Source: Paenibacillus sp. JJ-223
GTDB taxonomy: Bacteria; Bacillota; Bacilli; Paenibacillales; Paenibacillaceae
Reading direction: 5' to 3'
NCBI RefSeq assembly: GCF_927798175.1
Contig: NZ_CAKMMP010000004.1
Location: 1 to 64,000 of the forward strand
DNA length: 64,000 nt
Positions within the stretch are counted from its first letter, which is position 1. Each line of letters opens with the position of its first letter. The translations under genes were made by a program, and so were the position numbers. The notes beneath the pieces are model-generated. The model saw nothing but the letters and a program-made list of their open reading frames with translations, had not been told where the DNA came from and made no database searches. Positions 51,257 to 51,775 of this stretch are shown here, piece by piece.

Positions 51257-51330
51257 GTCCCAGTAGCTCAGCTGGATAGAGCAACGGCCTTCTAAGCCGT
51301 CGGTCGGGGGTTCGAATCCCTCCTGGGACG
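51257..51330 (+). tRNA. tRNA-Arg (anticodon TCT), copy 1
   Basis: A 74-nt cloverleaf. The acceptor stem is GTCCCAG/CTGGGAC, the D arm AGCTCAGCTGGATAGAGC, the anticodon loop CTTCTAA (TCT) and the T loop GGTTCGAATCC; the discriminator is G and there is no encoded CCA. An intrinsic terminator (AAAGCTCT...AGAGCTTT) follows directly. It is identical to the minus-strand copy at 59.9 kb. Confidence 0.97.
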
Positions 51331-51775
51331 TAAAAAGAAAAGCTCTGAGAAGAGCTTTTTTTGCGTCCGGGGATGAGAATCCCATTGGTTCGTCGGAGCA
51401 TAGGCTTCGGGAGGATTACATCGCAGTCTCGACTGTAAGGAGAGCATCCCTCCTGGGACGTAATGAAAAAGCTCTGTTAAGAGCTTTTTTGCGTTTCGGG
51501 GATGAGAACCCCATTGGTTCGTCGGAGCATAGGCTACGGGAGGATTACATCGCAGTCTCGACTGAAAGGAGAGTATCCCTCCTGGGACGTAATGAAAAAG
51601 CTCTGTTAAGAGCTTTTTTTGCGTTCCGGGGATGAGAACCCCATTGGTTCGTCGGAGCATAGGCTTCGGGAGGATTACATCGCAGTCTCGACTGTAAGGA
51701 GAGTATCCCTCCTGGGACGTAATGAAAAAGCTCTGAATAAGAGCTTTTTTTGCGTTCCGGGGATGAGAATCCCAT
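51331..51775 (+). repeat. Tandem array of about 130-bp units behind tRNA-Arg copy 1
   Basis: Three complete units and one truncated unit follow the tRNA. Each contains an intrinsic terminator (AAAGCTCT/AGAGCTTT, with loops that differ between units), GGGGATGAGAA(T/C)CCC, GGTTCGTCGGAGCATAGG and a CAGTCTCGACTG hairpin. Each closes with ATCCCTCCTGGGACGTAA, identical to the tRNA 3' end and the first bases behind it. The copies of that core end at about 51462, 51591 and 51721, steps of 129-130 bp. The last unit breaks off near 51775. The long reading frames on both strands here are by-products of the repeat. Confidence 0.9.

Follow-up and report, generated by a model that had tools for sequence, protein, structure and literature searches.

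RtT-like structured RNA units with a host-specific antisense T-arm in tandem behind tRNA genes of Paenibacillus

Introduction

RtT RNA is, to our knowledge, an odd feature of the tyrT operon of Escherichia coli with no agreed function, and a link to the stringent response has been claimed. Sequences repeated at tRNA 3´ ends are otherwise familiar from integrative elements that are targeted to tRNA genes by a tyrosine recombinase, with sites at the T-loop or the 3´ end of the gene. The sites used by tyrosine recombinases usually share an identical crossover overlap.

In two reports, the tyrT repeat RNA is used as an example of covariation and a tandem GA motif is noted (PMC7657543; PMC8250186), and a further study has RtT sRNA up at 10 °C in Thioalkalivibrio (PMC8092127). 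A further point of comparison is Bacillaceae-1 RNA (RF01690), a small structured RNA that resides in rRNA/tRNA clusters of Bacilli and is listed in PMC2864571. RtT-like units in Bacillota were not found described in the open-licence literature searched, which is a weak negative.

Here we analyze repeated units behind tRNA genes of Paenibacillus sp. JJ-223, starting from a stretch of 64,000 nucleotides referred to as the window. Like RtT, the units stand in tandem behind a tRNA and are closed by a copy of the tRNA 3´ end. They share with tRNA-targeted integrative elements the identity block at the tRNA 3´ end, an intact tRNA and the existence of element-free sites, but differ in their size of ~130 bp, in being a structured RNA with covariation, in an identity block without T-loop overlap, and in that no recombinase occurs among the ORFs scanned nearby. 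Bacillaceae-1 RNA is alike in being small, structured and located in such clusters, but neither T-arm copies nor tRNA-end closure were seen in the two copies examined, and the RF01690 model gave no match to the units in Rfam scans of related loci.

Results

The array at 51256-51777 on the forward strand begins with a tRNA-Arg(TCT) gene (51256..51331, locus Arg1; ARAGORN and the Rfam tRNA model), the T-arm of which, GGGGGTTCGAATCCC, is found at 51306-51320 (T-arm pattern match at 51310-51320). Between the tRNA and the first core lies a terminator-like hairpin with a T-run (51338..51362), which recurs in each unit. Three structured cores follow on the same strand at 51368..51450, 51497..51579 and 51627..51709, all matched by the R1 model (E 4.0e-23, 6.5e-23 and 1.5e-23, respectively). 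The core of unit 1 comprises helices P1–P4 and contains the antisense T-arm GGGGATGAGAATCCC at 51369..51383, assigned from the sequence and the host-specificity tests described below. The units are closed at 51446..51463, 51575..51592 and 51705..51722 by copies of ATCCCTCCTGGGACGTAA, 18 nt that correspond to the tRNA 3´ end from the T-stem onward and the first bases behind it; the first 5 nt of copy 1 also provide the 3´ strand of P1. The run of bases before the closing copy is GAGAGC at the first and GAGAGT at the other two. A partial fourth unit (51723..51777) retains the hairpin and the antisense T-arm (51759-51773), is divergent beyond, and ends at about 51777, after GGGGATGAGAATCCCATT. 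Tandem Repeats Finder describes 51316-51777 as 3.6 copies of period 130 with 94% matches and a score of 815, far above chance. The initial annotation had described three full and one partial unit of ~130 bp behind a tRNA-Arg, a copy of the tRNA 3´ end closing each full unit, and a CAGTCTCGACTG hairpin within the units, all of which is borne out by ARAGORN, Tandem Repeats Finder and inspection of the sequence.

A conserved terminator had also been proposed. The hairpin is present at Arg1, and that part of the claim stands, but it is typical of Arg(tct) hosts only: in a census, T-runs were found in 71 of 87 Arg(tct) units and 5 of 78 Glu units, and were missing from 73 of 78 Glu, 22 of 24 Asp and 28 of 41 Ser(gct) units. 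The hairpins at the Arg(tct) hosts of Paenibacillaceae, and a similar one at E. coli serX, are what would be expected of a module for transcription termination or insulation that has been multiplied behind highly expressed tRNA genes. We consider such a module highly improbable, since most Glu, Asp and Ser(gct) units do without the T-run and the host-specific antisense T-arm would be left unexplained.

At the gathering score, an Rfam scan of the window returned SSU rRNA, T-box and tRNA only and no match to the units, and no intron or ribozyme model was matched at units in Rfam E-value scans of related loci. The T-box leader, above the Rfam cut-off, is located at 27948-28232 on the reverse strand. 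Open frames run antisense to the tRNA and the repeat units (51292-51819, reverse strand; 59557-60033, forward strand). Gene finders may call them, probably in error, and E. coli tpr is perhaps a comparable case.

A second array of three units (59493-59902, Tandem Repeats Finder) lies 8 kb from the first and faces it. Its features are all on the reverse strand: the host tRNA-Arg(TCT) at 59887..59962 (locus Arg2; ARAGORN), cores at 59768..59850, 59639..59720 and 59508..59591 (R1 matches with E 1.0e-23, 2.6e-21 and 1.1e-22), and the last closing copy at 59495..59512. An orphan 5´ part of a core at 59258..59292, recovered by the genome search and by sequence, consists of an antisense T-arm and GGTTCGTGGGAGCA and has no closing copy. 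The search of the genome itself gave 16 matching places, some of them tRNA sequence only. Three tRNA-Glu genes and a tRNA-Asp gene are each followed by a single unit, and tRNA-Ser(GCT) by half a unit; in the Glu and Asp units the closing copy is the 3´ end of the tRNA concerned, a single mismatch being present in one of the Glu copies. The initial annotation had overlooked the Arg2 array, the orphan core, these further units and the antisense T-arm with which each core starts. In this assembly, which may have collapsed clusters, a unit or half unit follows 7 of the 14 tRNA genes with GGGTTCGAATCCC and is lacking at the other 7; one of the four tRNA-Glu genes is unit-free.

The opening of the core, NNGGGAT-GA-GAACCCNN, compares with NNGGGAT-TC-GAACCCNN for the reverse complement of the T-arm NNGGGTTC-GA-ATCCCNN. 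The two differ in the middle two bases only, and the core therefore opens with an antisense T-arm, the usual form of which is GGGAT-GA-GAACCC. In Arg(acg) units the middle bases, too, are TC (AGATTCGAAC); these and several f14 and f8 units are exceptions to the GA-for-TC exchange in which TTCGA is kept. The antisense T-arm is followed by a short loop, the 5´ half of a sense T-arm (GGGTTCG), a conserved insert of ~50 nt, and then the 3´ half of the T-arm with the remainder of the tRNA 3´ end. Aligned in this way, the unit reads as an antisense T-arm joined to a sense T-arm and tRNA end that appear split in the T-loop. In one tRNA-Glu unit (L040:253-336), the sequence that separates ACTTCGTT from AACGAAGT is inverted, an arrangement that template switching could produce. 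In loci of genus g13 (e.g. L224, L225, L230, L231, L246, L264), units behind a number of different tRNAs share the coupled changes GTCGG to GTTGG and CGCAGTC to CGCAATC, a pattern that concerted evolution or a common partner would give.

The unit is a conserved structured RNA, a four-way junction with strong covariation. The RNAalifold fold has helices P1 (GGGAU with AUCCC of the closing copy), P2 (GAACC with GGUUC), P3 and P4. Across 125 distinct aligned rows, 92.2% of cells are paired compared to 84.1% in shuffles, and 164 cells are changed on both sides compared to 43.5. The covariation score of 0.258 (shuffled, 0.138) was reached by none of 500 shuffles and slid-partner controls gave at most 0.097, figures to be read with an alignment fitted to the model, which favours the model, and with related sequences that inflate the shuffle test. 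One P4 pair occurs as UA, AU, GC and CG. P3 is the least certain helix, and its region folds otherwise in some groups. The bracketed bases of GU(C)GG and CGCA(G)UC form a further pair that the model does not include. Of 244 distinct units, 200 have it as C-G and 34 as U-A, so that it is Watson-Crick in 234; 10 units without the second block are left out of the count. The U-A cases come from one group of genomes and thus represent few events.

Judged by sequence comparison, the Bacillota units are RtT-like in plan. Four RtT units are present at the tyrT locus of E. coli, three of them behind tyrV and the other behind tyrT. As in Bacillota, an antisense T-arm, GGGGAAGG(A/G)TGAGAA(C/G)CTTC, is set against GAAGGTTCGAATCCTTCCCC with the same TC-to-GA swap, and the sense AAGGTTCG is followed by the insert and then by AATCCTTCCCCCACCACCA, such that the T-arm copy is split in the T-loop. 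RtT differs in its longer insert with other hairpins, in its period (178 bp at tyrV) and in its hosts, Tyr and Ser. At serX, three units annotated as RtT sRNA in one K-12 strain follow the same plan; of two further strains, one has a single unit annotated and the other none despite a match. The serine-type array of L341, as a query that includes the tRNA-Ser end, was covered to at least 80% by a place in 3310 of 5426 E. coli genomes. Against the model RF00391, with its gathering score of 45, the best Bacillota unit in the related loci attained 24.1 bits. The model reached 5 of 28 units scanned, at E values of 0.4 to 2.7 that are in the chance range; the five are the full set of three at one related locus, with 19-21 bits, and two f14 Ser units, with 21-24 bits. 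It had no match in the genome of JJ-223 even at E 10. The R1 model matched two of four E. coli units over their length, at 9.2 bits (E 0.061) and 4.1 bits (E 1.9), and fragments of the other two at 5.3-5.4 bits. Common descent of the RtT and Bacillota inserts is plausible.

A short-pattern scan of viral contigs gave at least 120 stretches. Among the 80 loci listed, real arrays occur in L341 and L304, both at a prophage edge. The match in L317 is a coding repeat, two loci with an upstream tRNA appear to be chance matches, and the remainder had no tRNA called upstream. In L341 (7400-8300) and L304 (12500-12858), the prophage edge is at an apparent enterobacterial tRNA-Ser end with the RtT-like array directly behind, in five 166-bp pattern steps in L341; nothing was found with the L341 array as a query against phage records. 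Separately, a Bacillaceae-1 RNA (RF01690, 52.8 bits, above the cut-off) is inserted in an apparent 5S rRNA gene of the Bacilli genome G337 (L460:161-228), and a second copy is found behind tRNA-Val in L458; small structured inserts in rRNA/tRNA genes may be a wider theme in G337.

A DNA search found matches in 63 of 75 genomes of the same genus. A named scan gave 88 stretches and, among the 80 titles listed, all were Paenibacillus except Chengkuizengella marina and one Neobacillus mesonae record (MER 107). The latter has a Paenibacillus-type unit behind tRNA-Ser(GCT) (L090), which means that the unit was transferred or that the record is mislabelled. For 178 distinct cores, the closest tRNA upstream, at a distance of up to 500 nt, was Glu(ttc) in 73 cases, Arg(tct) in 41, Ser(gct) in 34 and Asp(gtc) in 21, with none in 9. 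The 3´ end of the host itself (≤2 mismatches in 14 nt) closes 133 of 168 units, a count that omits one core without a readable T-arm and the 9 cores, several of them at contig ends, with no tRNA in that range. Units at other tRNAs, a prospect raised in the initial annotation, are thus found behind Glu, Arg, Ser and Asp tRNAs in this genome and its relatives, mostly closed by the 3´ end of their own host. Many hosts other than Arg have a single unit.

In the wider searches the covariance model matched 109 of 295 genomes of the family, in 3 of 19 genera, as well as 35 of 398 genomes in a class sample (4 outside the family) and 8 of 398 in a phylum sample (3 outside the class), the large searches having been run with strict filters by which weak members can be lost. 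All three matches inspected among the 4 class genomes outside the family show the unit anatomy. Of the phylum matches outside the class, G1041 and G923 show the anatomy, and G756, a match without tRNA and without unit anatomy, was set aside. In distant relatives the hosts also include Arg(acg), Ser(gga), Ser(tga) and Ser(cga), which brings the total to at least eight isoacceptors. Occurrence in other Bacillota is patchy. The function of the unit is dispensable, given that 7 of 14 GGGTTCGAATCCC tRNA genes have no unit and that only 7 of 145 sampled genera of the class were matched.

From these sequences, the antisense T-arm is host-specific. We compared 15 host-unit combinations from six lineages outside Paenibacillaceae, E. 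coli included. In a position-free scan, units scored 232 with their own hosts and 205.7 (sd 4.46) with permuted hosts, the former reached in 0 of 20,000 permutations and likewise in 0 for each half alone; reversed units scored 198, and in no more than 6 of the 15 rows did the two halves lie next to each other at the antisense site. Anchored at the antisense site, the scores were 220 versus 196.5 (sd 4.3; 0/20,000, and 3/20,000 for the 5´ half alone), and 186 versus 169.5 (3/20,000) without the two E. coli rows. The f14 Asp and f8 Glu rows go against the trend and score below the mean of other hosts. The antisense is also more than a partner of the unit's own strand. Compared over the same positions, its fit to the host is better than its fit to that strand in 120 of 218 units (repeats removed before the count), equally good in 87 and worse in 11. 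Antisense positions unable to pair within the unit match their own host in 141 of 292 cases and other hosts in 611 of 2336, with 28 units skipped in this test; collapsed to 59 distinct pairs, the two host-specific positions match in 46 of 118 and 219 of 880 cases, respectively. Within Paenibacillaceae, the 3´ half of the antisense scores 6.549 with its own host and 6.084 (sd 0.033) with permuted hosts (0/2000, in a test inflated by relatedness), and no more than 3 of the 9 T-stem types are best matched by their own host. No tracking of the host is seen for the 5´ half within Paenibacillaceae (5.373 versus 5.322, 123/2000), unlike in the 15-combination set. Three units with Gly or Val hosts were dropped from the permutation test in Paenibacillaceae, the unpairable-position test and the same-position test.

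These results bear on the possibility that the unit is released as a separate small RNA that acts in trans, for example as a decoy for tRNA-binding enzymes or as antisense to T-arms, with the tRNA-end copies serving as processing sites only. E. coli rttR is annotated as an ncRNA that starts 8 bases behind the end of tyrV and stops at the CCA of the closing copy, and closing copies retain the acceptor strand, often with CCA where the host encodes it. We nevertheless think a trans-acting RNA unlikely: the antisense differs by host and tends to fit the neighbouring tRNA, favouring action in cis, and a table row of a biofilm screen gives RttR at 97 ± 9%, with no marked change (PMC4606813).

The same-species genome G010 provides a second allele of Arg1. 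Here, hairpin and partial unit come directly behind an intact tRNA. None of the three full units is present, and the clean junction lies inside the repeat. The Arg2 array of G010 has three units, as in the present genome. Sites without a full unit therefore exist, at Arg1 in G010 and at a tRNA-Glu paralogue in the genome of JJ-223, in support of the initial annotation. The G010 allele is what recombination between direct repeats predicts, and the best reading is that array copy number changes by recombination between the tRNA-end repeats. Loss would be the simplest direction at Arg1, where the partial unit remains in G010.

The array had originally been explained by a small element inserting repeatedly at one tRNA 3´ end. 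This explanation is not supported, as the unit is a conserved RNA structure and the G010 allele fits recombination between repeats, and repeated site-specific insertion was set aside as the source of the array for the latter reason. Simple slippage of random sequence is rejected by the covariation, the many tRNA hosts and the host-specific antisense. The suggestion that the tRNA 3´ end is a tyrosine-recombinase site is likewise not supported: the shared block begins at ATCCC and leaves out TTCGA, in place of which GAGAGT or similar stands before the closing copies, and it thus lacks the usual identical crossover overlap. No recombinase or integrase was found in six ORFs scanned at 49513-61389, out of 28 listed for the window; the six comprise MFS, subtilase, methyltransferase and DUF402 proteins and two without match.

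Among 78 distinct inserts from 12 genomes, similarity is 0.732 between different hosts of one genome, 0.683 for the same host in different genomes and 0.668 when both differ; 6 of 10 comparable genomes show this order for the within-genome excess and 4 the reverse. The values fit concerted evolution or some spread between tRNAs within genomes, and some spread between different tRNAs of one genome appears likely. Together with the number of host isoacceptors, the patchy distribution and the unit-free paralogous tRNA-Glu site, they could reflect a small mobile element that inserts at tRNA T-arms or 3´ ends and copies its target both ways, the RNA structure serving mobility. We judge such an element to be decidedly unlikely. 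The six ORFs scanned hold no recombinase and the TTCGA overlap is not common to the closing copies, the same next tRNA behind many Glu units across the genus may point to old sites, and the similarity excess is small, reversed in 4 of 10 genomes, and could be produced by gene conversion.

It is also conceivable that the units are passive relics without function, formed when T-arm hairpins caused template switching that left direct-inverted-direct copies, followed by tandem duplication. The layout of the T-arm copies is of this type, the L040 unit has an inverted middle, and the G010 allele is free of full units. Passive origin would not lead one to expect covariation outside the T-arm copies (P4 and the C-G/U-A pair), a GA swap common to E. 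coli and Bacillota, or a conserved insert, and we regard it as very unlikely.

The effect of the antisense T-arm on the tRNA was modelled by RNA folding of 16 precursors (one of 17 was not parsed, and the row labelled Ser-tga used the neighbouring tRNA-Arg(acg)). The T-stem had a mean probability of 0.77 in the lone tRNA, which fell to 0.24 once the antisense was appended and to 0.14 once the whole unit was. Pairing of the T-stem with the antisense was 0.49 and 0.62 in these last two cases. The values refer to equilibrium and take no account of modified bases or tertiary contacts. The Ser-gct precursor of L034 and the Asp precursor of L011 hardly change, and in the three tRNA-Glu of the JJ-223 genome the T-stem is at only 0.30 for the tRNA alone. 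The models show an antisense predicted to be strong enough to compete with the T-arm in many precursors. The split copy alone does not win at equilibrium; the full unit fails to rescue the T-stem, and a two-state switch would therefore need co-transcriptional folding, modification or a factor.

Discussion

The reading that we tentatively prefer, with confidence a little short of even, is that the array is a tandem RtT-type cis-acting RNA in the tRNA 3´ trailer, in which mutually exclusive pairings control the precursor and copy number changes by recombination. The units would be transcribed with the tRNA, which at the Arg hosts requires read-through because the units sit behind a terminator-like hairpin. 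The antisense T-arm (segment 2) pairs with the split sense T-arm and tRNA end (segment 3) as P1 and P2, and it is also complementary to the T-arm of the tRNA itself (segment 1), such that the 1:2 and 2:3 pairings would constitute alternative folds of the precursor. Pairing of 1 with 2 would open the T-stem of the tRNA and delay its maturation. Pairing of 2 with 3, together with P3, P4 and perhaps a factor bound to the insert, would free the tRNA and release a unit RNA with a tRNA-like 3´ end. The choice between the folds could be made at the insert, by a factor or by tertiary structure, and the number of units could go up or down through recombination between the direct repeats of the tRNA end.

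A broader possibility, which we hold to be somewhat doubtful, is that RtT-like units are widespread host-tailored 3´-trailer RNA switches that decide precursor folding, or else a mobile RNA-structured cassette that refits itself to each tRNA, with E. coli RtT as one member of a broader family. Similar units have so far been known mainly from E. coli, and the same plan is now seen behind many isoacceptors in Bacillota. The antisense T-arm that fits its host turns RtT into a testable hypothesis, namely that of a cis-acting RNA controlling the folding or processing of tRNA. If this is true, the trailer would encode a layer of tRNA regulation. Should the units be moving between tRNAs instead, their re-tailored antisense copies would suggest an unusual mechanism of mobility.
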